From Panorpa germanica (lineage: Eukaryota > Arthropoda > Insecta > Mecoptera > Panorpidae), in contig OY783213.1 of the NCBI GenBank assembly GCA_963678705.1, forward strand, positions 11,722,451 to 11,786,450: a DNA stretch of 64,000 nt. Reading direction: 5' to 3'. Shown piece by piece: positions 715 to 44,067 of this stretch (positions are counted from its first letter, which is position 1; each line of letters opens with the position of its first letter). Both the position numbers and the translations under genes were made by a program. The notes beneath the pieces are model-generated. The model made no database searches. It worked only from the letters and a program-made list of their open reading frames with translations, and was not told the origin of the DNA.

Positions 715-840
715 ATGCACTGTTAACGCACCAGCTGTGACACTCAGCACTTTCACACATCTAGTAGGCGGTGGGTGGTGCCGGTACTGGTGCTGCTCCT
801 CTGCAGGGAATCCATGGACCCGACGTCGAACACATGTTTT
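715..840. other. Small GC-rich island, unassigned
   Basis: The GC content is far above its surroundings. On the minus strand two frames stay open for 25-50 codons, and a 3' splice-site-like 'ccctgcag' occurs near 800. No family is recognised and no paired donor was found, so it could be an exon fragment or part of a repeat. Confidence 0.25.
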
Positions 841-3060: not shown

Positions 3061-3358
3061 ATTCCTTACGCACCGTAATTACATGAATAATTTAGATCAC
3101 GTGATGTAACTCACCAAATTTCTTCTCTACCTAAATGCCATGTCAATCTCATAACTGTTTCATATAAAACGACAGGTAGCTATTAACCAAGAGTTATTGA
3201 TCCACATTCTCCATTTAATGAAATACCCAGAATTCTAGACAACATTCAAAAATACGTACAACTTTTTCAATTACAATACCGATAAATTTCTCAGGCGCAT
3301 TTCTTTTCCGCCATTGTTGGGTCACGTAAAGGTCAAACTGTGACCCTTTTGTCGAGAG

Positions 3359-3691
3359 ATGTCGTTCAATACAAAGGGCCTTTTATCAAGACGACTCATT
3401 TTATGTTGTAAGTGCTTCTTGATTCTTTTATCTCTTGCCAAGAGTCTTATGTCGATTTACAGAAGACGATTCATTGACACTCCTACTAAAAATAAATTAC
3501 TACTAAAGCTGATTCACGGTTTCAGACAAGTATCAGCAGGTTTTACGTTCATTAAATTTGTCTATGTAGTAGTTGGACAGTTCGTTTACGCACATGCTTT
3601 GGAATCATCTTGTGCAAGTATAGACTTCATTATATTAAGCAACATATCCACCAAAAAACCTTTTACTAAAATAATACAAAAACTTTTTTGA
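3359..3691 (+). CDS. Longest uninterrupted ORF in the window, 110 codons, doubtful
   Basis: An ATG frame rich in Leu, Ile, Lys and Phe, with no recognised domain. A hydrophobic run sits near residues 14-32 and another near 60-75, as AT-rich chance frames often show. No consensus splice sites, promoter or codon bias support it. In 64 kb of AT-rich DNA one such frame is not surprising. I record it only because it is the longest. Confidence 0.12.
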   Translation: MSFNTKGLLSRRLILCCKCFLILLSLAKSLMSIYRRRFIDTPTKNKLLLKLIHGFRQVSAGFTFIKFVYVVVGQFVYAHALESSCASIDFIILSNISTKKPFTKIIQKLF

Positions 3692-3699
3692 GTTAGCAA

Positions 3700-4370
3700 C
3701 CTTTGACACTTACAACTCGAAACATGCACGCTGTACACTTGAGGTCATAACCTTTGTTAAATTGAATATCCATTTTCTATAACGAATTTAAAGCTGCACG
3801 CACATAATGCGTTCTAAATAAGAATCATGACCTGTGCTCTTTCAAACGTTATAAATTAATTGTTTTCTGTCAGTCACTACATCTCTTTAAGTAGGTAATA
3901 ATTGTATTTCCCCTTTCTACTAGTACAAATAAAAAATATTTTTATTGTGTTAGTGTTTTTCTGTACGAGTATATTATGCACAAGCTTAGCTTGATCGGTA
4001 TTTTTCCCATTAAAAAACAAATCTTTATCAACATACGAAATTCAGATTTTTTATTGTTTTGAAAATTACGAAAGTATCTTCACTAAAACCACTGTCACTC
4101 CTAAACTAGTGATCGGAATATCATGAAATTTTAACACATATCGTTTGAAGATTGTTATTATCTAAAAATCATATGGATTTGTTAATAGTGACGCCATTTA
4201 TATGCTATCCTACGAATTTATTGAGTGAACTGTTAGATAAGTAGAGAGGGTAGCGTGAACCGCGTGAAACATCTTTACTTGACACTGTCTGAAATTCATA
4301 TTTTCTTAAACAAGACGTCATAGAGAAAAGAACCGACATAAATCTACGTTTTAATAAAAGTCTACAGGTA
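3700..4370. other. AT-rich non-coding stretch
   Basis: Nothing recognised: no coding island and no repeat shared with the rest of the window. Confidence 0.4.
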
Positions 4371-4371
4371 T

Positions 4372-4542
4372 TCGAGGTGGCTAGTGTGTTTAGTGAAAAA
4401 CAGGATATGGTATATAGCGGGTTTAAAAGTTTAGGTGTAATAATAAATGAAATGTAAAATTTTAATAAAATGAAATAAGAAGTGCGAAAAAAGGGCCGTG
4501 ATCCTAAGAAGCCCGTGAATTATTATTAAAAAAAAAAATAAG
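4372..4542 (+). mobile_element. LINE 3' end (untranslated tail with poly-A)
   Basis: 'caggatatggtatatagcgg' and 'aaaagtttaggtgtaataat' match the 3' untranslated part of the LINE at 7631-8099 (there 'caggatatggaatctagcgg'). Beyond it comes 'cctaagaagcccgtgaatta', then 'ttatt' and an A-run. The same terminal motif recurs inverted at 43015-43051. This is a dead, 5'-truncated copy of the same LINE family. Confidence 0.7.
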
Positions 4543-4659
4543 TCTACAACAAAATTACTAAAATATCTTCAGGATGATCGTCTTCCATAATTTTTTTAAA
4601 CTTCAAATCTGGACCTACCATTCCACGGTAGAAAATTGTCTCGCAATAAAAATTTAGAC

Positions 4660-4810
4660 TTAATATCTTGTCACAAGCGTTACATTGTATTATATTTTCT
4701 ACATGGGCCCAGATAGAAACGAACCTTGCACTGCAAGATAATTTCAATATAAAAAGTAGAAAATGAACCTTGAAATTAGCTTACGATAAGTTAGCATGTG
4801 CGAAACTTGT
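4660..4810 (-). repeat. Repeat family I, copy 1
   Basis: It carries 'ccttgcactgcaagataatt', 'aaaaagtagaaaatgaacct' and 'agcttacgataagttagcat', which recur, some inverted, at 10430-10545, 13565-13740, 20838-20880, 37425-37520 and 62085-62205. It is a short non-autonomous repeat with internal self-complementarity. No coding capacity; class unknown. Confidence 0.6.
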
Positions 4811-5924
4811 ATTATATGATAATTTTCTACGTAAGTTGCTTATTATTTGCTCTACGAGATCCTGACGATTTTGCACTTCATATTTCTGACAACTCCCGAG
4901 GAGTTAAGAATCCCTACTTACAGATAATTGAATTTTTCTTACTTTAACATCCGATTTGCACACGCGCTTCTAATCGCCACATGACGTATTTCCATCCACG
5001 CTTTCTACGTTCCACGGCTTACGCTTAAGTAACGGTTGAACCGTAATAATCCTAGATAATCTTACAGCCTAATTAAATGTTTAAAAGTAAAATAAAAGAC
5101 ATTGGAATTTAAGGTGCTAAGTACTTTTAAACTTTTAATAAAAATTCCTACCTAAATGCGTCAGTCAATACTTTTACAATAAAATCTTTTAGTAATTAAT
5201 AATTTTATATTTGTTTTTATCTGTGGGTTAATTACCAATTGAATAACTTGTTAGAGTAGCTTTGTAAATTGTCGTATATACTGCTAATGTTAACAGTTAA
5301 TACTTTGAATTGGACATGGTTATCTAAATTTTCATTTAAGTAATCAATGAAAAAGTTTTAGAAGTATTGCGCTGGTTCTAATGCATCCGTATTATTTTAA
5401 TGATCGGATAATGTCGTTTTATTATCTGTCATTTTTAATGATCTGCAATCAACATATGAATAATTTGGCGTTGGATTTGTTGAGTATCTACCGTCAACAT
5501 TCAGAGCACTGACCGCTTATTAATGTTTAACGTTCCAACTTGTGACACGCGAATCATACAATGCTTCGAGTATGAAGCTAAAAAGGTCAGGATTTTAAGG
5601 TCAAATTATACACATATGTATGTATGTATCTTACATACATCAACAAATTCATTAGCAATTGTAAAAACAATAAAAATTGGACTTATCTGATTTTTTTTAA
5701 GTTCTTGGACTTATCTTGGTTTCTTTCAAATATCTCGATATTGGTGGGTTCTACGGTCTTGGCATTTATTACCAATCTTAAAGAGAACAAAATTTTGGAC
5801 AAATTTCTCCTTCACAACTTTGCGCTAAACCTAATAACAAGCACGCTATAGCGCTGAGAAAATGGGACTTTTACCAAGTTGACGAAGGCAACACTTAGTT
5901 TTCTAAAATCATTACTCATGTGGT
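4811..5924. other. AT-rich non-coding stretch with GTAT microsatellite
   Basis: Contains a small (GTAT)n/(ACAT)n hairpin at about 5613-5640. The frame starting in that microsatellite is a chance ORF. Nothing else was recognised. Confidence 0.4.
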
Positions 5925-6326
5925 ATTGGAGTCAGGGCCGGCCTTAGCCATTGCGAGGCCCCGGGCAGCAGGCCATTGTGAGACACCGGGGCGGCAGATC
6001 TTTGTGAGGCACTTGTTCTTTGTATAATTTATGTAAATTGTAAGTAAGTATTTTTGATGATACATGACGAGAAATAAAATTTTATATTGGAATATTTATA
6101 AAAGTTAACAAGCACAAAGACGACAAATATTAATGATGATAAACTAAGGTAAATTAATACCTTAAAAGATATACGCAGTGATTCTAGTGGGATTTCTAAA
6201 GAGTGAGGCGCGATTTTCAAATACGTATATAGTAATTAATTTTTCTACTTGGCTTGTTGCGCGAGAATGCGAGGCATCGGGCGGTTGCCCTGCTTGCCGC
6301 CCCCTAAAGCCGCTTCTGATTGGAGT
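5925..6326 (+). mobile_element. hAT-type MITE family C, complete, with perfect 8-bp target duplication
   Basis: The 386-bp element at 5933-6318 begins CAGGGCCGGCCTTAGCC and ends CTAAAGCCGCTTCTG. It is flanked on both sides by ATTGGAGT (5925-5932 and 6319-6326), a perfect 8-bp duplication typical of hAT transposition. GC-rich ends enclose an AT-rich centre. It encodes no transposase, so it must have been moved in trans. Open frames crossing it are not genes. Confidence 0.93.
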
Positions 6327-6540
6327 CATATATTACCGTGAGAAAATGTTCAAAGATAACTTTTGTTATGTAATCTTACATTATACTAACCTGAAAAATG
6401 ATATGTAATAGAAACACATTTCTATCTTAAATAAACCTTACAATGTTCAGCGGGAATAAAAGACAGTACGTAGTATTTATATACACTTTTCTCTAAGATA
6501 GTATAATAAGATACAATCCATACAACTACAGAAGCAACTA

Positions 6541-6625
6541 TCAGAGCTCGATGGCTCGTCGTCTACATGAGTGGCGCTCACCGGCTCGCCGAATCGCGTG
6601 ATAAGGAGGCATAAAGTTCAAGCGC
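6541..6625 (-). CDS. Possible last coding exon of the FGF gene
   Basis: On the minus strand a strong 3' splice site (pyrimidine run then CTGCTGCAG) ends at 6626. The following frame begins with the third base of a codon and reads 27 residues to a TGA at 6543-6541. The peptide starts RLNFMPPYHAIRRAG and then becomes arginine-rich. FGFs end their trefoil with a strand of the type (K/H)-x-x-F-(L/M)-P followed by a basic tail, which is what suggests the link. It lies 6.7 kb downstream of the recognised FGF exon on the same strand. No perfect AATAAA follows within 150 bp. The exon needed between the two was not found, so the join is an inference; it could be a chance frame after a good acceptor. 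Confidence 0.4.
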
Positions 6626-6946
6626 CTGCAGCAGAAGAAGACGGGTTAAGTGAATACAACCATACGCATCAATGGTTATTTAATGGTTAGAAATGGATAT
6701 TTATTTAACAGAAAGCGTTGTAATTAAAAAAGAAACACTGGTATAGTACACAGTACTGGCGTATACCCATAAAGTGATTTAAAGAGATTAGAATTAATAG
6801 AATATTTGAAATGCATCTAATGTAACGGTATTTATTATTAGTATGGAAATAGTTCAATATTTTCGTTAACCCCTGTAAACAAACTAGAAATATAGTAAGA
6901 TTTGTACCGTTTATATCTCGTAAACTATATGTGCTAAGATAATGAT

Positions 6947-7240
6947 TTAAATTTTGTTAGATAGAGGGTTTATGTCTGTAATAGAGGTAAAAGCAGAAGA
7001 AGTGTTAATTAAGAAAGAAGGGAGTAAGGATAGTGAAAAGATAATAGAGGGTTTGTCGAGGGGAGACAAGGAAGGCAAGAAGAGTGACGGAGGTATAGGC
7101 AAGGAGGATGAAGAAGCAGGAAACGGTGAGAAAGAAGGAGGAGTAGGGAAGAAGAAGCAGAAAATACTTTTGGAAGCAGTAAAAAGTCTAGAATTGTTTA
7201 AGTTTTGTCTTAAGTTTGAATTTATATAGGAATTATATGT
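6947..7240 (+). repeat. Purine-rich repeat J, copy 1 (Lys/Glu-rich frame)
   Basis: An A/G-rich stretch with an open plus frame full of Lys, Glu and Gly. It shares 'aagaagaagcagaaaa', 'tacttttggaa' and 'gtctagaat(t/a)gttt' with 36305-36610 (inverted) and the last block with 23150-23560. It may be the ORF1 or linker region of a LINE, since a LINE 3' end lies 400 bp downstream, but that is inference. The long minus-strand frame opposite is its shadow. Confidence 0.5.
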
Positions 7241-7621
7241 ATTAGAAAATAAAATACTGTAAATGTGAAGTTGAAGGGCACACAATTACTATAATTAATA
7301 ATAATGTATTAGTAGAAGTTATTATCAAGTTGCATAAAGAAACCTAGCAGCATTTAATTTGAAAATAGCACACTTTTATAAGTCTAAAAATACATCATAT
7401 TTGTTTAATCCTAAACGGTATCTTTTTAAGATATTGGAATCTATAAAAGTAAGGTTTATAATTCAATGAATCAGGAAATGGGTAATTGCATTCACCATTA
7501 GGTTAAACTAGATACACAGCGGTAAAATTATGACTATATATAAGTAACTTTAGAGATTCATGTATTTATTTCTCACTATAAAAAGATTGAACTTCTAAAT
7601 AAGCTAAAAAATTAATTGTAC
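7241..7621. other. AT-rich non-coding stretch
   Basis: No coding island, splice-bounded frame or dispersed repeat was seen between purine-rich repeat J and the LINE insertion. Confidence 0.4.
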
Positions 7622-8108
7622 ATATAGTACTCTTAAGCAGCTAGAACAGTAGCTGTAGGAGAAATTCAATATGAGGTGGACTTATTGACAAAGAGCAAAA
7701 ATGAAGTGAAAGAGAAGTGGCAGGGTATGTGGAACAATTCAGAGAAAGGAAGAAAATTTTTCAGTTTACAGTCTTCGGTGTGCGGACGTCGTTGGTGGTG
7801 GAAAGCCCAAGGTCCGAGAAGAGTGTTATCACTTATCTCGAGACTAAGGGTGGACCATACAGAGGTATTGGCTCATCTTAAAAGAAATCACTTGGTGCAA
7901 AAAGATATGTGCAATTGTGGAGAAGGAGATTTTCCAGTGTACAGAAACGGAGTCCTGCAGAAATAATTTATACAGAGTTTTGGTAACAAATGGAGTGGTG
8001 TTGCCAAGTGTGCTTAGTGATAGACAGGATATGGAATCTAGCGGGTTTAAAAGTATAGGTGTAATAATAAATGTGAATATGTAAAATGTAAAAAAAAAAA
8101 TATAGTAC
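7622..8108 (+). mobile_element. 5'-truncated LINE: end of ORF2, 3' UTR, poly-A, 9-bp target duplication
   Basis: The insert at 7631-8099 is flanked by atatagtac (7622-7630 and 8100-8108). It carries the last ~110 codons of a non-LTR retrotransposon polymerase, to a TAA at 7964-7966. Key features are a W-x-x-x-W-x-x-S-x-x-GR segment, then R-L-R-V-D-H-T with a following C-x-C, in the manner of the C-terminal RNase H/CCHC region of R1-, I- and Jockey-like elements. A ~130-bp 3' UTR and an 11-A tail follow. The exact clade is not certain. The frame is intact but lacks everything upstream, so it is not autonomous. Confidence 0.75.
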
Positions 8109-8138
8109 ACTTTTATAGAAATTAAAACATGGTACATT
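8098..8138 (+). repeat. Terminal fragment of MITE family A
   Basis: 'tatagtacacttttatagaa' then 'attaaaacat' is the last ~40 bp of family A without the final TIR. It abuts the LINE poly-A tail, so the LINE target was probably family A-derived sequence. Confidence 0.5.
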
Positions 8139-8840
8139 ACCCAATTAAATGACTCAATTTCTAGTATACATTTATGACCGATCTAATACTTAATTTTATA
8201 AGACATATTTACTACAAGTATTTGAATATCTGATTACATCTAAAACACATTTTATTTCAATATTTCAACAAAATTTACAGCTACAATATAAAAGAAATAA
8301 ATATAAACCAAAATCTCTAGAACTATACGAGTATACTGGTACATAAGTCTTTAAAGTATCGGTTCGTAAAAAACTATCGTATCTTTGTATTTGTTGGTGT
8401 ATTTATTTAGTATGTAGAACTATAAATCTTCTGCATATTCTAAATAATTGGACAAATACCCATCAGATACGTTTACGATTAGAAGACGCTAAACAAGATG
8501 GATGACTTGAACAGTTGTTGGTTATTCTATTCCAGTTTCATTTCGGGAATAATAAGATGAAACGTTGGCCCTTCAAATGTGAAATATAGATCTAATTAAA
8601 CGTTTTAAACAATGAACTGACGGATTTTGAATACGTGGAACTATTACCATATCAAAGCCTCCCGAAATAACGAAATTTACGTAAACTTGGATTAGGATTA
8701 TATCTGAAAAATGTGGCAAGTTCCATTATTTGCATTTAGTTAAAAGTTACAATGTTTGCTTCTTCCATAATTAGGTAAAAGACTTTTTAATTGGTTCAAT
8801 ATTAATGAAGATATTAGCAATTATAGAGGACAAAGTGATC
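8139..8840. other. AT-rich non-coding stretch
   Basis: Nothing recognised. A decayed tRNA-like segment ('gtgtcttcgaattcgattct' at 8872) just beyond it may be an old SINE head. Confidence 0.35.
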
Positions 8841-8936
8841 ACAGCAGTGATGGTTGTTTGACCAGATTGATGTGTCTTCGAATTCGATTCTCGTTTTCAT
8901 TGTTTCGTTCAACTGATTATATAAATTGTCCTATAT

Positions 8937-9148
8937 TATAATGTTCTAGGTGTATTTCACTTGTTTATATGTTTGGTACTAAATTTTGTATGGTAGCTCG
9001 AAAATGGGTCCGTCAATGTTTTTGAAAATTACCTATTTCGTAGAGAAAAATCGTAATTTTGAAAAAAACTGGAAAAAAAGTGGGCTCTTTTTTGCTGTAT
9101 AAGTTTTTATTTGTAAAAGAGAGAAAGGTGAAATCTTCTATATATTTA
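8937..9148 (+). repeat. Repeat family H, copy 1
   Basis: It shares 'ttggtact(a/g)aattttgtatggtagctc', 'gtcaatgt(t/c)tttgaaaatt' and 'gaaaggtgaaat' with 11826-12110. It is AT-rich with no intact coding frame. Element class unknown. Confidence 0.6.
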
Positions 9149-9149
9149 A

Positions 9150-9285
9150 ATGTATTAGGCAGTGATGTAGTTAACATATATGAAGCTTTGTAACTATATA
9201 AACTGTCACCATAATAAGAAGACATCCGTGAAAACCCTCAGAATCGGAAATAGGTCCACATTAAATTAAATAAATAATTTATCTT
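9150..9285 (+). mobile_element. SINE family G, old 5'-truncated copy
   Basis: 'tattaggcagtgatgtag' through 'cagaatcggaaataggt' and 'aaattaaataaataa' corresponds to the 3' half of the SINE whose full copy is inverted at 30693-30963. The tRNA-like head is missing. Many substitutions indicate age. Confidence 0.65.
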
Positions 9286-9289
9286 TTAA

Positions 9290-10429
9290 ATAATAAGAAT
9301 TAAAAGAGTGGTATAAAGGAACACGAAAATTAAAGAGACAAACACTACGTCATTCTGTCTTACACTCACTAACTCAGTTATGCTGATCAACCTAAAGTTT
9401 TTATAATGACCTGTGTGTAAAAATGGTTAACCAAAAACCGTTAAATTTGTATAAAAAGATGCAAAATCATTTCGGTTTTAAATCTCTAATTTTAACAAAA
9501 CATTTTCGAATAAACACTTAATATAATCTGCAGATTCTACTGAGAGTACACCGCTCAATTAAAACTATAAATAGTGATGTTAATTTCATTGTATGACGAA
9601 AAGCAATGATGCTCTTCAGAAGTCAGTCCATCGTGTAATAGTATATTATACATTTTAACAAACCTCAAGAATTAGTCCCTCATTAGTTTCATTATATAAA
9701 AACAAAACATGGTCGAGTGTGAGTGAATACAAATAACAAGAAAAGACATAATTAATTATTATTTATTGATACAGTATCGATCACAATATAAATCGTTTTT
9801 TAAGGTTATATTGCCTCAAGAATCTCTATTATGACAGTTGACTAGGGTGGGCCGGCTTTATTTATTCTTTTATCAATAAATTAAAATAAATATATATTTT
9901 ATAGATCCAAAAACATAAAATGAATATAATTGACTAGATGGATCGAATCAGTCGGTTAAGCCGCTTTGTCTCGTACGTTGATTTAGAGAAAAATAAAAAT
10001 AAATAATTATAATAAATGATGTCCACCAAATCTGTATCATTAGAGTCATCAGAATGTTTTGTGGACTCAAATTTCGTGGAATTAGAAAAATGTAGATGAT
10101 GTTAATAGTAGATGATTTTAAGATACATATATTGTTTTTTTTTTATTAATTTGTATTTGATATTAATTGATGTAATAAAATAAAATTTGAGATAACGCGA
10201 AACAATATTTAAGGCATATGCATTCCAGCGGTATCAGACAAGTGTATCTACAATATAAGTTCATATCTATTTGCATTTATGAGTGAACTGAGTATTGAAT
10301 CAGATAGAGGGTACACATTTACATATAACAACATACTTAACTAAAATTTAGATTTTTTGAAAATGGCTGACAGAGGAACTGGACGATCGATATGTGATAT
10401 TAATTTTTATTTAAAATTAAAACCCTTTT
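9290..10429. other. AT-rich non-coding stretch
   Basis: No coding island, no consensus splice pair and no dispersed repeat recognised. Contains several A/T homopolymer runs. Confidence 0.4.
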
Positions 10430-10545
10430 CTTGCAGTATATGATTCGCACTTCCTAACTTGCCCCTACCTAATTCCAAGGCACATTTTCTACTTTTCATA
10501 TACAAATTATCTTGCAGTGCACTTTCACAATTGCTAGCTTACTGT
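10430..10545 (+). repeat. Repeat family I, copy 2
   Basis: 'tctacttttcatatacaaat', 'tatcttgcagtgcactttca' and 'attgctagcttac' match the other family I copies. Confidence 0.55.
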
Positions 10546-10749
10546 AATCTATATATAAGTGTTACGTTTTCTTTGCCTTTACTATTTCCTTCCAAATTTT
10601 TGTTTAACTTGTTCCAAATATATTTTCTACTTAAGTGAATTCAAGTTACGCGGATTTTTGGAAACGAATAAGACATGTTTAGGGTCTTTAGAGTCTTTGT
10701 TATTTTAAATTTCGCGCCATTTTTTAAATGTCAACATACAACTATCATT

Positions 10750-10885
10750 GCGATGACATTTGGTAGATATTGTGTTCCATTAATAACCTCAGGGTTTGTA
10801 CTTTCGATTAAAACAAAAATATGAAAAACTTTTCTAAAAAATATTGCGTTTTTCTGTTGATTTAAAATGACAACTCTTGTTGGCA
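10750..10885. repeat. Dispersed repeat K, copy 2
   Basis: 'taacctcagggtttgtactt' matches copy 1 at 465-600 in the same direction, while 'aatattgcgtttttctg' matches in inverted direction. See copy 1. Confidence 0.5.
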
Positions 10886-11283
10886 GCCCCTTAAGGTTGT
10901 TTATTTAATATTAAAAGCATTACAGTATGTCAATCGTGATGATAACTGAATTTTTTCTGTGCAATATTTGTAGAATTATTGTGTTTATAAAGTGCTTGCA
11001 CACTAATCGCGTGATCTGTGGTCAATGGTCATTTATTACATTATAAGTACGAAACGTGCCAAATTTCATGGAGGTAGCTAAAAGTGCAGAATGCTGTCAT
11101 TTATTTATATTGAGTAGCACACTATAACAACAATACACCTTGACGAATAAAACAATAAAGAAATAATTGGGCATAAAAAAAGCTGATTGACTAAATCCAA
11201 AAAAATGTTTTATTTTAATTGATTTTGATATTTGCACAATTGTTGTTTTGAAACCGTTTTAGGCAACAACTAAAAACGTCCTT

Positions 11284-11544
11284 TTGCTCGTTAAGTATCT
11301 TTACATGTATTTTAAATCGATTGCAGATCAGTTGCATCTGCTGGATGGTGTAACTGGTGACGGTGATAGACGTGTGGCCGAGGAGGTCGTTGAAGAATTG
11401 GCATGCGCCACGCTAAGACTTGTCTTGTTGAACCACTCATTGTTTTGTCATTTCGTCGCCTTATATGGAAAATGTGATTTACAGAGTTCCAATAATTGTT
11501 TTGAACCCAAACGAAACCCCGAATATCTGAGTCTGCTTTGTTAA
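11284..11544 (+). other. Unassigned open region, possible coding relic
   Basis: A plus frame of 86 codons with an unusually charged and balanced middle (D-Q-L-H-L-L-D-G then V-A-E-E-V-V-E-E-L-A). It is preceded at 11325 by an acceptor-like 'ttgcag', though the frame also runs open through it. A second peptide-like stretch (LSTEEFYKFFYNYKGLAKPG) follows near 11608-11667 after in-frame stops. The minus strand is also open over 11318-11450. It may be an old transposon gene or an exon relic; I do not recognise a family. Confidence 0.3.
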
Positions 11545-11654
11545 ATTGGCGAATATTTAAGAGGAGCTTACACTTGAAGATTTGGCAGATTTAAAGTAGT
11601 TGTCAACAGAAGAATTTTATAAATTCTTTTACAATTATAAAGGACTAGCTAAAC

Positions 11655-12480
11655 CGGGCAATGCTGAGCTCAGTCTGATATGAAATGAAAGGGAAAGTAA
11701 ATAAAAGACACACACACAAACACAGATGATGATCAACTAGAAAAAAAACGAATGAAATTTTAGGACAATTAACCTACTACTTGAGTTTTGCGAGTACAAA
11801 CATACGCAGGATGAATTTTTATCCTATATTATAATGTTACAGGTGTATATTTCTATTCTTATATGTTTGGTACTGAATTTTGTATGGTAGCTCAAAAACG
11901 GCTTCGTCAATGTCTTTGAAAATTGCCTATTCCGTAGAGCAAAAAATTCTAAGACTTTTTGCGTCCCCGGATTTTTTCCTGGAAACCCGCAATTTTGGAA
12001 AAACTGGAAAAAAGTGAGCTCTTTTTTATTGTATAATTTTTTATTCGTAGAAGATAGAAAGGTGAAATTTTGCACGTGTATTACGCTATTAAATGCAAAT
12101 ATATTCAAAATTCAAAATTTTATAAAATGAACACCGAGAAAATTACGGGGCCCGGTATGAAACTTTAAAGAAAGCTCAAATTTTGGATTGTGTAATAATT
12201 GAATATCGTATTAAAAGAAATATAATCAAAATTCAAAATTTTTTTTTGGGGGCACGGGGGCGGTTTTTGCCAAGGGTAAAAATTGTGCTAGAAAGGTGAA
12301 ATTTTGTATATGGGCTTAACTTTGGTACCTTATCTACGAATCAAAAAAAAAATCCCAAATTTTGAAAAAAAAGTTGGTCAAATAACGAATAAATTGAAAA
12401 TATTTCATATTTTATTGAAAATAATATATTTTTTTAGTCAGTTTATATGAAAAATTATTTGTTTTTAAATATGTAAAATA
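11655..12480 (+). repeat. Repeat family H, copy 2 (longest)
   Basis: 11655-11830 matches 45110-45265 ('gaaagtaaataaaa', 'tgagttttgcgag', 'aaacatac', 'tgaatttttat/c'). 11826-12110 matches 8937-9148. Together they show that the two shorter copies are parts of one longer element. A further stretch with 'ggggcacgggggcggttttt' and a second 'gaaaggtgaaattttg' near 12250-12310 is unique here. No family assigned. Confidence 0.55.
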
Positions 12481-13371
12481 TATATAGAACGAGTTAAATA
12501 TTTCAATTTAAAAATGGAATTAAAATTTGAAATGCAATTCAATTCATACACAAAAGAAAGTCGTCGTTTGTGTCGCTTAATAGAACTAGCCTTGACTATT
12601 CTTCTCTATATTTCTAAAAGTTAATTTTTTTTTATTTTCACTGTAACTTTATAAAAGACACTATAAAATAAAGCTTCAACGGGACGCGTGGTTCTTTTTG
12701 TAACATTAGTGCCATTCCTTTGTGCGACAGATATCTTTTCAAACGTCTTTAGTACTTATATAATTTATAAGATATAATTCAAATCGAAGTACATAACCTT
12801 AAAAAAAAGTGAAAACAACATTCATCACTACTTTTCCAATACCTGCTTATTATAACATTTATTACTCCACTTAAATACGTTTAACCAATAAAATAGTGCA
12901 TGTACTTGACCGCCAACACGTATTCAATTATTTAAATCGTGGGCTTGTACCAGTACAACAAATGCCAATGTCAAACATAAAACTAACGACCGACCAAGTT
13001 ATAAGTACACGTAACAAACTAACTCTAGATGAAATCAATCTTTCTAAAGTACCACATTACAAATCCATAAACTCCAAGTCAAATGTTTTATTTTCTATTG
13101 TTGGTGCCCATGTATATATCCACTAATGACATGTTGTACCAACAATACCCACACGAACAGAATTAATGATGTATACACTGATAGTAAAATTGTTCTCATT
13201 TTCGTTTTAACAGAACCTTTCTTCTAATTATTTGGGTGTGAAATTGATTTTTGTTTTGTTAAGTTCAACTGGTGGTAAAACACGCATGGGATTGTTTTTA
13301 GGATGAAGTGTTTTGATTACAGTCTGTGTAATGTTTGGTATAATTAAATATGCAAATGAGTTTATACTTAC
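12481..13371 (-). other. Intron downstream of the FGF core exon, first part
   Basis: It begins on the minus strand with GTAAGTAT at 13371-13364. The minus strand at 12680-12830 has weak FGF-like resemblance but a broken frame (see rejected items). A plus frame at 12896-13126 has no support. Confidence 0.5.
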
Positions 13372-13475
13372 AGATCCGTAGAGCATCCCACATGAGTCCA
13401 TACACAGAAATAGGCACGTTGCAACACCTTGTATCCTGATTTGGCCGATGTTTACTGTTGTCCTTTGAAGGATTG
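13372..13475 (-). CDS. FGF family core exon (middle of the beta-trefoil)
   Basis: The minus strand has an acceptor with pyrimidine tract (TTTTCTGTTTCAG ending at 13476), 104 bp, then the donor GTAAGTATAA. The frame starts after two bases that complete a codon and encodes 34 residues, I-L-Q-R-T-T-V-N-I-G-Q-I-R-I-Q then GVATCLFLCMDSCGMLYGS. This is the fibroblast growth factor pattern V-x-I-x-G-V-x-x-x-x-Y/F-L-x-M-x-x-x-G-x-L-Y-x-S, strands 4-6 of the trefoil that binds FGF receptor and heparan sulfate. Animal FGF genes have a middle exon of 104 bp with the same phases (1 in, 0 out), an independent confirmation. FGFs are secreted ligands of receptor tyrosine kinases; in insects they guide tracheal and mesodermal cells. 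The other reading frame open here is a shadow. Which insect FGF (branchless-like or FGF8-like) cannot be told from this exon. The preceding and following exons are not firmly identified. Confidence 0.93.
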
Positions 13476-13564
13476 CTGAAACAGAAAATCAAGTTAGATA
13501 TTTCGTATGTAGCTTCTTTAGGAGTATGTTTTAATAGTTACATTGAAAACCATTAGCTAAACTA

Positions 13565-13740
13565 TACAGTTCTTCTCGTAAAATGGTCTTACAATGCAAG
13601 TTTCACACTTGTCAGATTGCCATAAGCTAATTTCAAGGTTCATTATCTACTTTCCATATAGAAATTGTCTTACAGTGCAACGTTCATACTTGCTACCCTT
13701 CTAAAAGCTAATTCAAATGTTCATTTCGTACCTGAGATAG
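13565..13740 (+). repeat. Repeat family I, tandem pair
   Basis: Two units with a spacing of about 81 bp: 'tcttacaatgcaagtttcac...aagctaatttcaaggttcatt' and 'tcttacagtgcaacgttcat...aagctaattcaaatgttcatt'. They lie just upstream of the FGF exon inside its intron. Confidence 0.65.
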
Positions 13741-15029
13741 CATGTTTAATTTATTGAAACAAATCTAGACTGTTTCTTGTAAATAAGACTATAGTGTTAT
13801 ATACCATAACTTTACTAGCTTAAGTTTAAAGCTTCGTTTCCTTTATTGGTACTAGCTAAATCTACCAATCTAGCTAGCTCTCAAGGTGTATGGAAGCTTG
13901 ACTGGTGCTAGCTATCATTAAACCTTGCGCCAATCTTAAGTAGTAGCCTTAAAATACGACTATCATCATATTATCATCATAATATCCTTCTAATATTTTT
14001 CTCAAAATTTAACACAATGAATATTCTAATGGTCTTAATGTTTCAACGACAACCATTATCGTTAAATTAACGATATAAGCAGAGAAACGGTTTGGACGAC
14101 TTATTACAGGCCTCACTAGCAATGAGCTCTGAAAAGCCCATTTGGAGTCAGTTATGACTAGAAAAAATATATTTCGCGTTAGCTCTAAAGAAAATCGAAC
14201 TTAAATCTCCAATAATGTAATAATTCATGTACCATCGGGGCCGTTCCGAGGGTCATACGAGAGATACCTTTACCTCGGATGCCAAGAGAAAGGGGCCTCG
14301 TACTGTAATTTAATTTCACAGTAGTCTACTATTCTAAGAAAGAAAATGAGCGCCGAAAATCATCTCGCATGTACTAATTTCCCTCGAACCGTAACTGTCT
14401 ACCACTACCTTTTATGGCAAGAAAGTTGCATAAGGCAAATCTTAATATATACATGGTCTGCATAAGGTGTTTCGATAAATAAGATAATTGAAATGGTGTT
14501 ACGGAATTCATAGATGAAGTGTCTGAAATATCCTAATCCTCACTGGAGATAACTAATATTTAGTATAGTAAGGATTATAATGTGAAATACAAAGAATAGT
14601 TCATAAATGGAGGCAAAATATAATTAAATCATTAGAATCGGGTGTCATGCTTAGAGACATATCTGCTGCAGAGCTGCCCGTGTGCCACGTAAGCACTTTT
14701 CATACGCAGATTTGTGTAACCTTCAACATTCTTACTACAGTAATGAATTTATTAATTATTATTTTATTATATGGTTTCCTGTTCTACTGATGATATCGTA
14801 ACACTTCATGCACTTTTGATATTGCTTAAGAGCTTTGCTTAGTTCAAAAAAGATATTTAGAGTTTGGATATCAACATAACCTCACTTTACATCGAATCTA
14901 TTATGTATCAAGAATATATATCAGATGGTGGGTGTTAAATAACTAAAGTATCTACAATTTATAGCATTAAATGAAGGCAAAAGTGTTTGTAAACTATTCA
15001 TTTTGACAGTTGTACTATTGAAAACTATT
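13741..15029. other. Intronic AT-rich stretch with a short GC-rich hairpin
   Basis: At 14238-14296 a GC-rich segment has near-inverted arms ('ggccgttccgagg' and 'cctcggatgcc'). No coding frame or known repeat was recognised elsewhere. Confidence 0.35.
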
Positions 15030-15262
15030 TGTGATTACCCAGAGGCCATTGCGCGGCGTCGTGAAATACGTGGTGGACGAGATACTTTTATCAAATGAAA
15101 GAAGCACGCAACGGATAAGTATTCGCGTATGTCCGCCAGGGTAATATCGCATGGTGTACTCATAATTAGCCGAGGTATTGTGGACTGCAAACTCGTAAAC
15201 TGCACTGCAATGTGTACTCGTGCCTCACTCCTGCGTGCGTCTGTAGAACATGTCTTTATTAC
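15030..15262 (-). other. GC-rich island open in two minus-strand frames
   Basis: Two overlapping minus frames are open for 65-70 codons. One contains M-S-T-P-C-D-I-T-L-A-D-I-R-E-Y-L and ends in a basic R-P-P-R-I-S-R-R-R segment before a TAA. No convincing splice-site pair bounds it. It could be an exon, a transposon gene relic or a GC-rich regulatory block; no family is recognised. Confidence 0.3.
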
Positions 15263-15484
15263 GGCTAATGTGCATAAACGAAACGTTTAATGGAGGATTG
15301 TACGAGAATAAATAATAAAACTACGTGAAGTACGATTGTTTAAATATTAAAAATAACAAAAGGCATTAAAATAAAACAAAATATAAAGCTGCATCCATTC
15401 TCCAACTGTTTTATAACCAGGAAAAGAAGATGACCAGGCCCGAATTAACTAATAGACAAGTAAGACAAATATCAAGAGCCCATA

Positions 15485-15662
15485 ATTTTACCCCTACTTG
15501 CTTACCCCCTACCTCACCGCCAATCAACCAAGCCAGGAACAGCGGTTCGGCTAGAAAGAGACAGATAGGACACTCGACTGCTATCTCTCTCTTTACGTTT
15601 ATCGCTTCCTCTTACACGCGGCCGTACCCTTGGCGCCCTCTATGCTTATATCTCTATGGTTA
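15485..15662 (+). mobile_element. MITE family D, copy 2, 5'-decayed
   Basis: 'cttgcttaccccctacctca', 'gcggttcggctagaaagaga' and the terminal 'cttatatctctatgg' match copy 1 at 2811-3052. The left TIR is not recognisable. The ORF over it is not a gene. Confidence 0.7.
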
Positions 15663-15779
15663 CAACAGATTGGGGTTTATCATGTTTCTACACGTTTCTG
15701 AATGCAGTGTTGATGTTGACTTGGTTATCATTGAGATGATTCCCTTAAGTATTAATATGTTGAAATGTTTGTCCTTTTA

Positions 15780-16185
15780 ATATAAGATAAGTTAATATTA
15801 AAGAAATTAGTACATATATTACAAGAGGTATAATACATATTTTGATTATGTAGTCAACATTCAAGTATGACATAAGTAAGTTCATTTGTCAAATGTTACT
15901 ACGATATTTAATGCATAAAAAAAAAATAATTAGCTATCTTCGCGACTTCAAGTGATCAACAAGAATTTTTTGCAGTAGCGCAATAAGGAAACACATGCGT
16001 CAGCATGCGTATCTTTTAAATAAGTTACGTCACATCATAAAATTGTGAATCCAATTCAAACAAATGAACAGTAGACCCATTAACCGAAATAATTTATCAT
16101 CTGCTCTAAATCCATAAAACTGTGCGTTAACGCTGTGAAAATGCCCCGTTAATTTCATTGTGATATCTCTATTCGATTGAAATAG
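15780..16185. other. Intronic AT-rich stretch
   Basis: Nothing recognised. Confidence 0.35.
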
Positions 16186-16189
16186 TTGG

Positions 16190-16398
16190 CGTATGTTGAC
16201 AGATATTTTAATATTAGTATAGCCGTATAGTTTATATAATTAAGAGACTTATGCTTAAAACTAGTTGTACCGTATAAATCTAGGACACAATAAAATAACG
16301 CTGTTTCATTAATTTTTTTATAATGCTTATAGCAACAAACAAGATAAAATTTACCATCGTATCGTAGATTTATATAGTTCTTATTACTTGTTTTAAAC
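16190..16398 (-). mobile_element. MITE family E, old divergent copy
   Basis: Read on the minus strand it gives 'atcgta' / 'ttttatctt' / 'atttatac' / 'tacaactagttttaagca', the order found in the full copy at 42108-42311. The minus-strand ORF of 86 codons is only this element. Confidence 0.6.
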
Positions 16399-16734
16399 AT
16401 TACAATAGGAGACAATAACTAACCTGACCTGATCTCTCAAAGTCATATTTAATTCCTACCCTTTCCTTCTATGAATAACAGATGCGTAAATGCATCTGTC
16501 TCTAGGTAACACATAAGGTTTTGATATTATGAATGTTGTGAACAAAGAAAAACAAAATCGATTACTTTTTATACAGTCCTTAATACTAATAATGTGCCGC
16601 CAAAAAATGTTGCTGCAAACACAGAAATTCAAACTTTAAATAGCTATATCTCCGTTAATTAAAAAAACAAATAGATAATTTATTTAACGATGGCCTTTCT
16701 CCAATGAACAACACCGCCGCCTAATATTTTTTAT

Positions 16735-16857
16735 GATTTTGTAAACACAGAATCAAATTCAACCTTGGTAACAATTAAACCTAGAAAATATATAGCCTAA
16801 AATCAGCGATCAAACCTGAAGGCACAGCAGTTTGTCGTACTGCATTACAAGGCCCTC
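16735..16857 (-). mobile_element. SINE family G, decayed head and body
   Basis: 'aacaattaaacctagaaaat' and 'cagcgatcaaacctgaaggc' then 'acagcag' correspond to the inverted SINE at 30693-30963 ('ggggatcgaacccgaagaca', 'cagcag'). The B-box is degraded. Confidence 0.6.
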
Positions 16858-16859
16858 GA

Positions 16860-16957
16860 ATTTAAAGACGGCCCTCGAAAGAATTGCAGATTAATTTAGA
16901 ATTAAAAATGAAAGTAGAACTTTAAAGTTAGGGTCACTAAAATCGGAATCCGCCCCT
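16860..16957. mobile_element. Possible hAT-type end
   Basis: The right edge 'ggaatccgcccctg' is the reverse complement of a CAGGGGCGGATTCC-type hAT terminus. The left end is not clear, so the limits are approximate. Confidence 0.3.
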
Positions 16958-16959
16958 GT

Positions 16960-18960
16960 CAGAGATGCAAGTTTATTTAGAGATCCATTAACCGGGCCAT
17001 AGAAATAGTCTGGATTCAAGTCATGCATCCTGATAAAATAAGTCAGGAATTACAAAAGCAAAATTAGTGACAGAATTTGTATGACATGCTAACGGAATTA
17101 TATTTACACGTTTAAACGCGCGGATCTAAAAAGTTCAGACGTTCTTTCTCATAATGTTTCTTAAAATACTCCATAACAGGACCATGGCACAAGTCCATGA
17201 AACAAAAAATTAAAACTCAATTTTTGTTTGATTTGACAGCTTCAAAATATAATGTAAAAACAATTCGATTATTCTTACCGCGAGTAACAAATATCTAGAA
17301 CATTAGGATGTGCAAAATGTGGTGGGTTGTATTTAACAGTTAGTGAAGTTAATAGCCTGTAACTATAGTGTATCTCAAAATAACTGCAATAAATGTTAAC
17401 TTAGAATATTGTAAGACAGATAATGTACTTAACCTAAAAATAAGATGTTTATTGCTTTTGAAATATGAATGAACTTATTCGTTTTTCTTCCTGGTTTATA
17501 CATTTTATAAGTATGGTTACATATATAAATACATCAACTACATACTCCAGAACACAATACATGCCACAAACTTTAATAACACTTTACGTTTACACAAAAC
17601 TATTAAATCAAAACACTAATAAAACACTGAAATAAGAATCTGAACACTGTGTTTATATATAATACTATAACAAAAACATTCTTTACGAATATATGCACAT
17701 TGATATGTATATTATTATGACATTTCAACAAGAGCACCTTATTTCACACTTCCGTAATTATGACACCCGAATAATTACGAAAGAATCTATCGAATAATCT
17801 CGAAGATCCTCCAGCCTCCAGTGAGTTAAAAATGTCAGTGTTCAAGGTCGTTCAATTTTTTTCTAATTTTCTAAATTAAGTTTTTAAATAAAAAATGTAA
17901 TTTGGTATTCAAAATATGTTTTAAATTATAATATTAGTGTTCTGTAACATTGTGAGATATAAATTTATAAGCTATAAACTCTTTTTTTGCTAAAAATTTG
18001 TGTAAAGTATATAACCTAACATTACCGTTTTAAAATTTATACGCGTCGGTGTGAAGTTTTTTTTGCAGTGACACTAGCGGTACCACCGTAACGAAAAAAA
18101 ATGTTCCTGCAGAAACAGGTTAGTGTTTTTTATTAAATGTAAATGTTTTTAATTTAATGTATGTTGGTAGCTTAGCTGTCAGAATTGTTTAAATAGCTTT
18201 GTATATGTTTAATATATTTAATTTACAATTAAATATTGTTGTAATTAGAAAATTGCTATAGATATATATACAGTACACATATTTAATTATTTCCGCGGTA
18301 TATTAAACTTTTGAGTACGACTGTACCATCAGACTGCTTCTAGACATAAATATATACATACATTTAAATGCATGTAAGCACGTTCAAGAAAGTATAATTA
18401 TTTAACACGATTGACAAGGACGCTATGAGATATTTTAATGCAATACTTTGTGAGTCATCAACGATGCATTCAGTGAGATATAATTTAAGTATTAGCTAAA
18501 TTTATCTTTTATTTTCTATTTTGTTAGCACAGTATCTATAACACAAGTTAAAATTATACACATTTAATCGATCTCTTATCAATGAAATTATGAAATATTA
18601 TTTATTGCTTATAATTGTATAATTTTCTTTCATAAATATTTCGGGTTTGTAATTATAGGTTTTAGTTTTTTAAATGTGTTTAAATTTACGTTTTGAAATG
18701 AGGCGTAGAGTATAATTAGAGCTTGAAATTAAGTCATTTGTTATAATATGATACTTCGGGGCGTGAACGCCCTCACCTCTTACTCCCTCTCCCACTACCT
18801 TGCGGCTGACAGGTCCATACACGAATTAGAAAAAGAGTAATCTATCAATGAAGTACGAGTATTTAAACGTTTGCACAGAGGTTCTAAAAGTGTTATTAAA
18901 ATTATATGAGTATTAGCTGTTATACATTATAAATATATTATAAGTTGATAAATATATTAT
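16960..18960. other. Intronic AT-rich stretch, little recognised
   Basis: No exon-like island. A short GC patch at 18758-18815 ('cggggcgtgaacgccctcac') is a small hairpin of unknown origin. Confidence 0.35.
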
Positions 18961-18963
18961 ATA

Positions 18964-19110
18964 GTCGACTCGTGTACCTTTCCTCGTGTTTTATCTCACT
19001 CGCATACACGTTCGATCTCTCACTAACAACACAGTTGTAATCACATTCGCTTTGGGTAGATTCGAGGCTAAGGTTTGCAACCATTCGCCTCGTGTGCGGT
19101 GGGCCTTAGT
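18964..19110 (-). mobile_element. Foldback element family F, one arm
   Basis: 'tctcactaacaacacagttg' and 'cgcctcgtgtgcggtgggcc' then 'ttag' are the inverted counterpart of the left arm of the longer copy at 44396-44795 ('ccctccgcacacgaggtgac', 'gagttgttaatgagagaacg'). Only one arm is present here. Confidence 0.65.
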
Positions 19111-19805
19111 TCTTTAAAACTATATAAGTAGCAGCCTTAATATCTAAAAATTTCTATGTTGACATTTTTCTCTAGACTAAAAATAAAATATTTATTAAGT
19201 ATAAAAATTCCTTGAATACAATAAAAACCAGATGTACCTCAGCGCATCGTTATTTAAATCAGGTTTAATAAAATGCACATTCAAAAACATATGTCAGTGA
19301 TTATTGGTACGGTATTTAAAGTCTTTAAAGACTAGACTCGTTCTATATAAATTAAGTGATTCCAAAAAAAAGTTGGTATTTATCATAGTTGGTGTTAAGT
19401 GACAAAATAATGCACGGAAGTGATAATAGATAAGCTGTCTTGGAAACCAAAACATCAATAAATCTCCGCCTACCTTTAGACTACTATAGTAACACGTAAC
19501 ACATAAACATTGTGTTTTATTAATAGATATCTATTTTATATTCTTACTGGAGATAGAATAAAGTGGTTTTAATTAAAAAGGGGAAGTTAAATACTTGTAT
19601 ATTGTATTCCGCTTTTCATACCCTTGGTAAAATTGTTATTTTCTTTCTTATTGAAAGATTTATCCAAGTAAAAAATCTTATGAAAAGTCCCACTTATATA
19701 TTAAAAAATAAACCTAAGTATATTAGTTATAAGATTCAAAAGTTTCATATTATATAGGTTAGGAACACTATATGATCTTGAAACTTTTTAGAATAGAGGC
19801 ATAAA
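19111..19805. other. Intronic AT-rich stretch
   Basis: A plus frame at 19563-19757 is Lys/Ile-rich and looks like chance. No other feature. Confidence 0.35.
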
Positions 19806-19898
19806 AAAGTAATTTATTTGGCGTCCAAAGTGCTGAGTCCTATAACCGAGAGTTGAACCCTCTCATATATGCGGGTTACACATTTGCAATTTAATGTA
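19806..19898 (-). mobile_element. SINE family G, 3' half
   Basis: 'aatttatttggcgtcc', 'gctgagtcctataaccga' and 'catatatgcgggttacac' match the inverted SINE body. The head is replaced by a family B MITE that begins immediately after. Confidence 0.7.
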
Positions 19899-19902
19899 AT
19901 AA

Positions 19903-20114
19903 TAAACTTTTGGAGTCACTTTCACATCATATTGAAGATGCGTATGATTCTTTTGTCATGAAAGAGTTCAGTTTCTCACAGTCGTTCATATGAAATGTCT
20001 ATTTCTGGAATACAAATGGCTAAACCACTCCTCCTGTCGGAATACAAAGATACTGAAGTGCAATAGTGATGGAAACGTCACCAAATAAGACACTTTACCA
20101 AATTGTTTACTTGG
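19903..20114 (+). mobile_element. MITE family B, copy 1
   Basis: 'tttggagtcactttcacatc', 'attgaagatgcgtatgattc', 'tttctcacagtcgttcatat' and the end 'caaattgtttacttgg' match the copies at 34911-35133 and 38939-39191. The left TIR is damaged. Confidence 0.8.
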
Positions 20115-20837
20115 AAACCTAGAAATTATTACTCTGCTCCGGATATCGCTATAGGTTTTATATTTTATCGTGGAGAAATATAAAAAGTTTTTCTGAATAG
20201 CTCCCTTAGACGCTTATTTTATAACAATTTAGTGACGCCCTTTTACATTACAGGATTTTACAAAATTGGATTACTTAAGTTTATCCAAATATATCGGACT
20301 AACTCGAAAAGGTTGCGAAATAGATACGATATCTTGAGGACGACCTAAGTATGGTACTTCGAAAATATATCTAATGTTAAAGGGTCTCGTTAGAACTAGT
20401 AAAATTCTTGTATGTCAAAATTTCATGTTGTTCAGGAAATAGAAAGAATTTTGCTAATGATGGTTCGTAAGTTTAAATAAATTCGCCTTCTAGGTAAGCT
20501 TGAGCAAAGTGGTTTCTGTTCTAATTTTTGACATATGAAGTTTGTCATCTTTACCATCGATATTCATATTTGCAGTAATGGGTTCTTATTTAACTAAATG
20601 GAGCTTTTAAATCGTTTTGGGATAATTCCAAGTTATCACTGGTATGTGACGAGGTTGACGACAATTAGGCTTGATTAATTGCCAACAAATTGAATGTCAC
20701 AAGGCATTTCATAAAATTCTATCATCTTGAATAGTTAATTAAAATCTAAGATAAGGAAGCAAACTGTTTAATTGAACTACTTGTTCATTAACTTCATATA
20801 AATCATTTTCTAACAAGTTGATCGCAGGTAGAACATC
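20115..20837. other. Intronic AT-rich stretch
   Basis: Nothing recognised. A 'ctaggtaagctt' at 20487 looks like a juxtaposed acceptor/donor on the plus strand but lacks a pyrimidine tract. Confidence 0.3.
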
Positions 20838-20885
20838 GTCTTACAATACAATTTTAAACTTGCTAGTTTGCTATAAGCTAGAGGT
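20838..20885 (+). repeat. Repeat family I, fragment
   Basis: 'gtcttacaatacaattttaa' and 'cttgctagtttgctataagc' match family I. Confidence 0.45.
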
Positions 20886-21960
20886 ACAGGGAGAACCTTA
20901 TCGACTCTCATAGTGTGAATACCAGTGCGTGAATATATTTTAATTCTATTTCAAAAAGAGTTTTGTTTAAATATCCTGTTATTTAAGATATATAAAACAT
21001 ATCCTTTAATTGTAGTGGTCTATTGTATAAATGATTTTGGTCAAATTTTGGGACTGCCTCCTGAAACCATTATTTTCTTAATATCATTTCACAATCTGAT
21101 ACATAATTATTTAATTTATGACATCACGATTCATCTCTTCGGAATCTTAAACGATTTACATATATATTTTCAATACCATTCAACTATAATTAGAAACAGA
21201 TTCTAATATGAAAGAGAAAAGAGCGCGACTCGTGGTCGATCGTTGAACTATTAATAGTGTTTAAATACTATTTTTAACAAAATTGTAATAAATTATATAA
21301 TTAACAAATTACAGGAACTATTTCTGTAATAAATATGAAAATATTATGATATATGTTACGTTAAATTTCAAAACATTCCGACAGTAATTACAAATTATTG
21401 TTTAATTTAAATTGCGTGTTACAAGTCACACATTAATGTTTGAATTAAACAAGCATTTGTTTAAAATGACAGGTTTTTATTTATATATAATTAATAAAAG
21501 CTGTTGTACAAATGATGATGACCCGACCCGACCCGGCACGTGTGTCTGCCGCTCATATTTAATGCGTGTTAAATTTTCCAATCAAAATATTCTTCATGTT
21601 GCATTTATTGTGTATTGTTGTTAATGTAATTGTTATGCTCAAGACTATATCTATTGAATTGATTTAATATCTGTAATAAAACAGTGATAATTAGAAATTA
21701 TTAATTAGTAAAACTGTATCTATTAATATTTTAATTAATTTTGTTGAAATTATTATATGCTTGCTACGATCTCATATGTGGTGAAACGGATATTATTATA
21801 AAATGAACCTTACTTCTAACTGTCATACGATTGACATACTACGTTTACGTTTATGAACTGTATAATATATTTCTTATGTGTATAAGATTCATTTTACGAT
21901 AATATTCCTTTCTCAACTGTTCTCAACGCATAGGAGTGCCATATCGCTACAGGTAAATCT
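20886..21960. other. Intronic AT-rich stretch
   Basis: Two plus ORFs (20925-21206 and 21412-21624) are Ile/Leu/Tyr-rich without domain or splice support. No shared repeat recognised. Confidence 0.35.
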
Positions 21961-21964
21961 GCCA

Positions 21965-22450
21965 TACTTTCTATTTTATTCAGCGCTCATTTTATATATT
22001 CTCAGCCCTTGCTTCCTGTAAGATTTTTTACCATTCCTGCCTAATGGTCGGATTCATTTTCCAATTCCTTGCACCTATTCTCTTAGGTGCTATTCCAATT
22101 GTTCTTTTCACTTCTCCCGTGAGTTAGCGGTTCTGTTTTCGCCTGTTCTTTCTACATATCCTAATCGTTGTAGTCCTTTCCTCCTAATATCGTATTCTCC
22201 ACTGTCCGTACTGCTCCATAAATTTTCCTTTCCGCAATCGCTCTTCCTCAAATTATCTGGCTTTATTATCACTTTATATATCAGGATTCTTACTTTGCAA
22301 TTTATGGTACTTAGGCAGATCTATTTAAGTTTAATAATTAACAACCGGCTGTAATTTTTGCTTTAATTTGAAATCTCATATTTTCTGAATCGCACATTTC
22401 ATTCTATCCAATTTAAAATTATTAGTCCATTCTTGTGTAACTTTCAGTTG
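21965..22450 (-). mobile_element. LINE polymerase relic (end of reverse transcriptase)
   Basis: On the minus strand several frames together give the C-terminal pattern of non-LTR polymerases: K-V-R-I-L-I-Y-K-V-I-I-K-P, then L-Q-R-L-G-Y-V-E-R-T (cf. L-R-W-x-G-H-V-x-R-M), then W-x-x-x-P-T-I-R-Q-E-W and K-I-L-Q-E-A-R-A. Stops and frame changes near 22110 and 22030 make it dead. RTE- or R4-like clades fit best, but I cannot choose. It differs from the LINE at 7631. Confidence 0.65.
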
Positions 22451-22725
22451 CTGTAATGTTGCAAACGCAAGTAACCCGTTCAATCCTCGATGCGGCAGAT
22501 CCTTTGTAGTTCAAGTACATTAATTTCCTGATAAGCTACGCTTTTATAAATCACAAAACGCGTACGTCCAATTTTTTAATTTAATAAGAATGAATTAATA
22601 CATCCCCAGGGCAGTTTCTTATAAATCTTAGGATTTATTGACCTTCCCATACACGTTGCAATTAATTCCTTTGCTTACAAGATGAGGTGTTATCTTTCTC
22701 ATTGCTTGGCTATATATTCGGTGCA

Positions 22726-22920
22726 TTACACTTTGTCCGCCCTTGCACTATAAGTACAGATAAATGGCTGATGAAACACCCGCGGCTGCGGTTGTTGTTC
22801 GCATAAGACTCTTACATACTTTAGACTTATTTCAAGACGGTCTGACAGGTACAGAACGAAAGTGTAAGTACTCTTAATCGCTTCACGCCTTACGTCCTTG
22901 GCGTCTGCCACCATTGTCAA
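22726..22920 (-). CDS. Intact 64-codon ORF opposite a possible plus-strand first exon
   Basis: The minus frame starts at ATG 22920 or 22914 (second Met), has mixed codon third positions and ends in TAA. It contains Y-L-S-D-R-L-E-I-S-L-K-Y-V-R-V-L-C-E-Q-Q. The opposite strand is also gene-like (see next entry). One of the two is a shadow; neither protein is recognised. No splice sites were found for the minus frame. The LINE relic on the same strand ends about 280 bp downstream, so LINE origin is possible. Confidence 0.25.
   Translation of the reverse strand: MTMVADAKDVRREAIKSTYTFVLYLSDRLEISLKYVRVLCEQQPQPRVFHQPFICTYSARADKV
22764..22863 (+). CDS. Possible plus-strand first coding exon
   Basis: ATG at 22764 in the context ataaATGGCTG opens 33 codons beginning MADETPAAAVVVRIRLL, then a good donor T|GTAAGTAC at 22864. 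A TATA-like 'ctatatattc' lies about 50 bp upstream (22709-22718). No matching downstream acceptor exon with the right phase was identified. It overlaps the minus ORF above. Function unknown. Confidence 0.3.
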
Positions 22921-23149
22921 ATGTGTGTTTAAGATAGGATTACATTTGCGTGAAAGAAATAAAGCACAAGCTCACTATTTATTGCTTCATACGAGGGTAT
23001 TATTAGTTTGAATTTTTACGAGTTCATAAAGTTTTGTAATAAAGTATACTCTCAATAAGAAGATTGTAAGCAAGGTCATAATTCAACAGTAAATTTCTAA
23101 TACATACAGTAGAGATGACAGGTTTAAACTGTTAGAGACTAAGGGAATA
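22921..23149. other. Intronic AT-rich stretch
   Basis: Nothing recognised. Confidence 0.3.
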
Positions 23150-23560
23150 CCGGAGTACTTAGAAAATCAGAGAAGCAGCGATATTAAAATGATCGTGTGG
23201 AAGGAAGGAGGAGACGGAGAGAGTATTGAGGATATGTGGAGAGAAGGAGAAAAACTGGAGTATATGAGGAGCAGTGGAAAGAGCGTGAAAGTAATATTGC
23301 CAGGAGAAACTGAAGGAAGAACATGGATGATTGAAATAAGGAAGAGGTGAAAAGAAAGAGAGGGAGAGAATAACAAACAACAGTGCAAGGCAATGGAAGA
23401 AAGCTAAGGAGGAAAGAATTAGTAAAGAAAGAAAATAAACGTTGTGAGCAAGAAAATTAAGAGGAAGTAATTGTAGTGAAAAGAGAATTTATAAAAAAGG
23501 AGAGGGTCTTGAAGAATAGTTTAGTTTTCTTTTATTCTGTTTGCACAGTTTGGAATGAAT
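23150..23560 (+). repeat. Purine-rich repeat J, copy 2
   Basis: About 370 bp almost purely A/G, ending 'gggtcttgaagaatagttta' like the other J copies. All three minus ORFs opposite it are Ser/Phe/Leu-rich shadows of the purine tract. The plus strand has stops. Confidence 0.5.
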
Positions 23561-44065: not shown

Positions 44066-44067
44066 TA

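Follow-up and report, generated by a model that had tools for sequence, protein, structure and literature searches.

The window, that is, the whole stretch of 64,000 nucleotides analysed here, contains on its minus strand a coding exon which, judging from sequence comparisons, is almost certainly the middle one (exon 2) of a three-exon branchless (Bnl) orthologue in a genome of insect type. The features, with positions counted along the window, are the following:

13476..64000, minus strand: 3′ part of intron 1 as modelled (78,805 nt in total), continuing past the window as far as exon 1 (end at C10:11814731)
13476..13491, minus strand: predicted acceptor site of intron 1, with a polypyrimidine tract and TTTCAG, as read from the sequence
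13372..13475, minus strand: coding exon 2 (104 nt) of the putative branchless (Bnl) FGF gene, encoding residues 308-341 and including two bases of codon 307
13366..13371, minus strand: predicted splice donor of intron 2, GTAAGT, as read from the sequence
1..13371, minus strand: 5′ part of intron 2 as modelled (24,763 nt in total), continuing past the window as far as exon 3 (start at C10:11711058)

On the minus strand at 13475-13372, the exon is entered from an AG acceptor (...GATTTTCTGTTTCAG, followed by CAATCCTTC...) and left through a GTAAGT donor (...TACGGATCT, followed by GTAAGTATAA...). Translation starting two bases in yields the 34 residues ILQRTTVNIGQIRIQGVATCLFLCMDSCGMLYGS. The sequence-only reading had described an FGF core exon of 104 bp, running from phase 1 to phase 0 between a consensus acceptor and a consensus donor. 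This description proved accurate throughout: the 34 residues alone match the Pfam FGF profile (PF00167) with 34.2 bits (E = 2.9e-8; cut-off 24 bits), exactly 104 nt separate the TTTCAG and GTAAGT signals, and the phases, 1 at the acceptor and 0 at the donor, are compatible with the flanking exons of the gene model, 919 + 104 + 843 nt joining in frame. A homology-free scan of both strands of the window identified 39 open 104-nt AG...GT intervals in the phase of exon 2 (14 on the minus strand, 25 on the plus strand); exon 2 is the one interval of the 39 that combines a polypyrimidine tract at the acceptor with a donor of the form GTAAG or GTGAG. The findings confirm that 13475-13372 is a genuine, mostly ordinary, FGF coding exon.

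The gene model comprises three coding exons (919, 104 and 843 nt; 622 codons with a single stop at the end, encoding 621 amino acids) and spans 105,434 bp (105.4 kb) of the minus strand. Exon 2 occupies C10:11735925-11735822 in contig coordinates; exons 1 and 3 lie on that strand too, both beyond the limits of the window. Exon 3 is found 24,763 nt downstream of exon 2, at C10:11711058-11710216 (843 nt, stop included); the acceptor reads GGTTACAG and the exon continues with REFTQDCVFNEQ... The splice model as a whole is built on homology and consensus sites only. As the introns measure 78,805 and 24,763 nt, the entire window would, by this model, be intragenic, made up of intron 2, exon 2 and intron 1. 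A minus-strand gene with very large introns had been anticipated, correctly, from the window's letters; the same reading let the gene fill much of the window, and the large extent stands, the model assigning to the gene the whole window, not merely much of it. At E ≤ 1, the only Pfam domain in the 621-residue protein is FGF, scoring 116.9 bits in a search by sequence only (residues 277-393, profile positions 1-115 of 124; cut-off 24).

Exon 1, at C10:11815649-11814731, includes the start codon and ends in the donor ACA/GTAAGT. The search covered all phase-1 GT donors preceded by at least 18 open codons, across the window and a further 99.5 kb upstream, using a small profile of the first FGF strands made from eight human sequences and the C17 paralogue described below. 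Among 2,248 candidate donors the exon ranked first, with 20.1 bits (19.5 in one piece). In control searches, the best score was 5.8 bits on the plus strand (2,416 candidates) and 8.9, 10.1 and 6.7 bits in three mononucleotide shuffles. Its frame opens at an ATG and begins MIKALLLLWAPLLAASLS; by inspection this start is signal-peptide-like (MIKALLLLWAPLLAASLSLTCCA). Within the window itself, where 671 such phase-1 donors were scanned, the best candidate, second overall, was a stretch at 20815, scoring 17.5 bits over two pieces (12.1 for the best piece). This candidate was dropped on account of its poor donor (CTT/GTTAGA), short open stretch and lack of a signal-like start, against the 20.1 bits of the C10:11815649 exon. 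The profile score alone is not decisive, the unrelated-looking 20815 stretch also lying above the controls.

The two introns were searched for nested genes. Three of the five open frames of at least 110 amino acids have no Pfam match and two have weak ones (E 0.65 and 0.87), far below the cut-off; searches with Rfam and for tRNAs returned 0 matches each. An interspersed repeat of about 600 bp, probably a non-autonomous transposon, is present in both introns as whole or partial copies, at 1230-1828, 24272-24837 (inverted), 25742-26363, 46621-47256, 51956-52591, 57505-57941, 59602-59832 and 60672-60731. Similarity between pieces of these copies reaches 98% in some and falls to about 65-75% in others, and one copy harbours a 178-nt tandem duplication (52003-52355). 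Among the 2-kb bins of the window, 6001-8000 stands out by a marked GC skew (0.27) and AT skew (0.12). Elsewhere in the genome, only one of 20 COX1-like matches falls on the mitochondrial contig C249 (16,386 bp); most of the other 19 are short and contain several stops, and these 19 are probable nuclear copies of mitochondrial DNA. The mitochondrial contig carries tRNAs I-Q-M, W-C-Y, L2 and K-D around COX1/COX2 (28 tRNA calls, some probably spurious), presumably the ancestral insect/pancrustacean order.

A six-frame search of the genome (464 Mb in 249 contigs) with PF00167 identified four matches at E ≤ 0.001, including the exon 2 locus (E = 3.3e-6); two of the four belong to one gene on C17. 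The best solved relatives of the C17 paralogue are FGF1 chains, and those of the C21 paralogue, taken without its exon 1, are FGF18 and FGF8. The insect FGF set consists of Bnl, an FGF1/2-like and an FGF8/17/18-like member according to PMC3420111, and the present gene together with those on C17 and C21 matches it. The middle exon, with limits set by the open frame and consensus splice signals, measures 107 nt in C17 and 116 nt in C21 and goes from phase 1 to phase 0 in both. Thus, the phases are common to all three genes and the exact 104-nt length is found in the Bnl gene only. At the two FGF sites that it shares with the Bnl gene, C17 has introns of only 59 and 79 nt (C17:13778512-13778570 and 13778678-13778756), as opposed to 78,805 and 24,763 nt, so that giant intron size is not general to FGF genes here.

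Assignment of the gene to Bnl draws on two stretches of the Drosophila protein (15 and 42 amino acids, not the whole protein) read from mutagenesis primers printed in PMC13041799. They were compared with the model and with 17 other FGFs, namely 15 human rows and the C17 and C21 paralogues; Tribolium Tc-Bnl, named in PMC3420111, was left out. The first stretch, KIQLYIKNRILQILR, has 11 of 14 residues identical to the model (score 57; next best of the 17, 25), and the second, of 42 residues, agrees at 25 of 41 with a score of 122, the runner-up reaching 58. Because both match far better here than in any of the 17 other FGFs, the gene is most likely the orthologue of Drosophila Bnl. The earlier suggestion of an insect FGF gains support, by inference, from this closeness to Drosophila Bnl among the FGFs compared, from the FGF set, which matches that of insects as given in PMC3420111, and from the tRNA order of the mitochondrial contig.

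An alternative we consider very unlikely is that the exon comes from an arthropod FGF9/16/20 gene distinct from Bnl. PMC4244043 places a centipede FGF weakly with FGF9/16/20 and also regards it as a possible Bnl orthologue. Among the best 60 of 113 solved-structure matches, FGF20 (93.9 bits) and FGF9 (90.9) rank first, ahead of a designed consensus FGF (84.1), FGF10 (76.9), an FGF1 variant (71.3) and FGF13 (65.4), and the alignment reaches into the FGF9-type N-terminal stretch. Grouping with FGF9/20 is not rejected by the AU test on an 18-row tree lacking any other Bnl (p 0.28), nor is grouping with FGF7/10 (0.10) or with FGF1/2/C17 (0.09). However, the best tree sets the protein beside FGF8/18 and C21, with weak support (75/73), and the first fly stretch scores only 18 in FGF9 and 21 in FGF20, the second 48 and 46, against 57 and 122 here. 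Should Bnl itself be a derived member of FGF9/16/20, as PMC8224027 proposes, the two readings would merge. As for a dead FGF copy or a chance open stretch, the very large introns with their many repeats would suit it, but three ordered exons on one strand with an intact frame, consensus splice sites, a signal-like start and an FGF domain above threshold, in a genome where PF00167 at E up to 10 finds 8 places (9 candidates scored; weak extras on C5, E 3.2, and C3, E 7.3), make it a negligible prospect.

The sequence-only reading took three cysteines in the core as a possible mark of an insect subfamily. This may hold for Cys327 and Cys335, which align with cysteine in none of the 15 human FGFs, but not for Cys331, which aligns with a cysteine of FGF8, 18, 19, 21 and 23 (5 of 15), as well as of C21, and is therefore not insect-specific. 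Cys348, encoded in exon 3, aligns with cysteine in all 15 human rows but not in C17; the near-invariant core residue at this place corresponds to Cys83 of FGF1. By analogy with FGF8-type FGFs, Cys331 and Cys348 would likely form a disulfide between the parts encoded by exons 2 and 3. The FGF1-like C17 paralogue (C17:13778757 onward), without the core cysteine of the 15 human FGFs, has ESTVF at that place.

By the model, exon 1 would encode a start resembling a signal peptide, then a long N-terminal region that is rich in Ser, Thr and Asn and contains candidate Furin sites, and finally the first FGF beta strands; exon 2 would supply the central strands of the fold, and exon 3 the remainder together with a very basic tail. 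Candidate RXXR sites lie ahead of the FGF core, for example RRVR at 214. By analogy with Drosophila Bnl, the product would be a secreted, heparan-sulfate-binding FGF, trimmed by Furin, which would activate a Breathless-type FGF receptor and guide tracheal branching. The gene model, the FGF domain and the greatest similarity to fly Bnl have been established by computation; the mode of action is likely that of Drosophila Bnl, from which secretion, cleavage, receptor and role are transferred.

Many vertebrate FGFs have introns at the two sites interrupted in this gene, and passage through a virus would be expected to strip a gene of its introns. PMC3420111 gives the origin of Bnl as unknown and sets out two possibilities: either the gene was inherited vertically and lost in other lineages, or a baculovirus captured it, after which it evolved fast and was re-integrated into arthropods. 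Potential horizontal transfer is also mentioned in PMC8224027, beside its FGF9/16/20 proposal. Presence of both FGF introns at ancestral positions and phases speaks for vertical descent and argues against baculovirus re-entry, since a virus-passed, intronless gene should lack them. With a conviction somewhat better than even, we favour a history in which Bnl descended vertically, as its ancestral introns contradict the viral scenario. Its source may have been FGF9/16/20, and in this history Cys327 and Cys335 were acquired as a mark of Bnl itself, possibly for an extra disulfide or dimer contact. No earlier report of the intron argument on Bnl origin was found in a search of open-access literature; a scan of IMG/VR for viral relatives yielded four stretches fitting a pattern, none of them confirmed. 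Intron positions also offer a simple test for the source of the arthropod-specific Bnl subfamily. This is a modest extra, introns at ancestral sites arguing against a published viral re-entry, in what is otherwise a well-conserved developmental gene.

Exon 2 has a counterpart in mammalian FGF5. In elephants and mammoth, exon 1 of FGF5 contributes 364 coding bp and exon 2 measures 104 bp (PMC2754481), therefore phase 1 and then phase 0; length and phases of the middle exon are equal to those found here, although the subfamily differs. FGF20 is 41% identical to the protein over 128 columns and, with FGF9, stands at the top of the solved relatives among the best 60 of 113; both lack Cys327, Cys331 and Cys335 and differ at the domain end, and the present protein has long flanks. 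Drosophila melanogaster Bnl undergoes removal of residues 1-164 by Furin1 and is GPI-anchored via a C-terminal signal, a hydrophobic tail being reported for its isoforms (PMC9203819). In the last 60 residues of the present model such a hydrophobic GPI-signal tail is absent (best 17-residue mean hydropathy 0.59); instead, a strongly basic cluster, RCRRRKKRRKKKRRC, follows the FGF core. This species may do without such anchoring of Bnl, or the gene may have another last exon; the GPI signal is known in the fly, as a feature not shown to define the Bnl subfamily. The precursors differ in length, 621 amino acids here and 770 in the fly according to PMC2923630, both being long. In common with fly Bnl (UniProt Q9VDT9 as given in PMC13041799), the protein has the FGF core, the signal-like start and the multibasic region ahead of the core. 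The gene is of a known type and provides a new example of it, with a complete model of a Bnl gene whose introns are very large.
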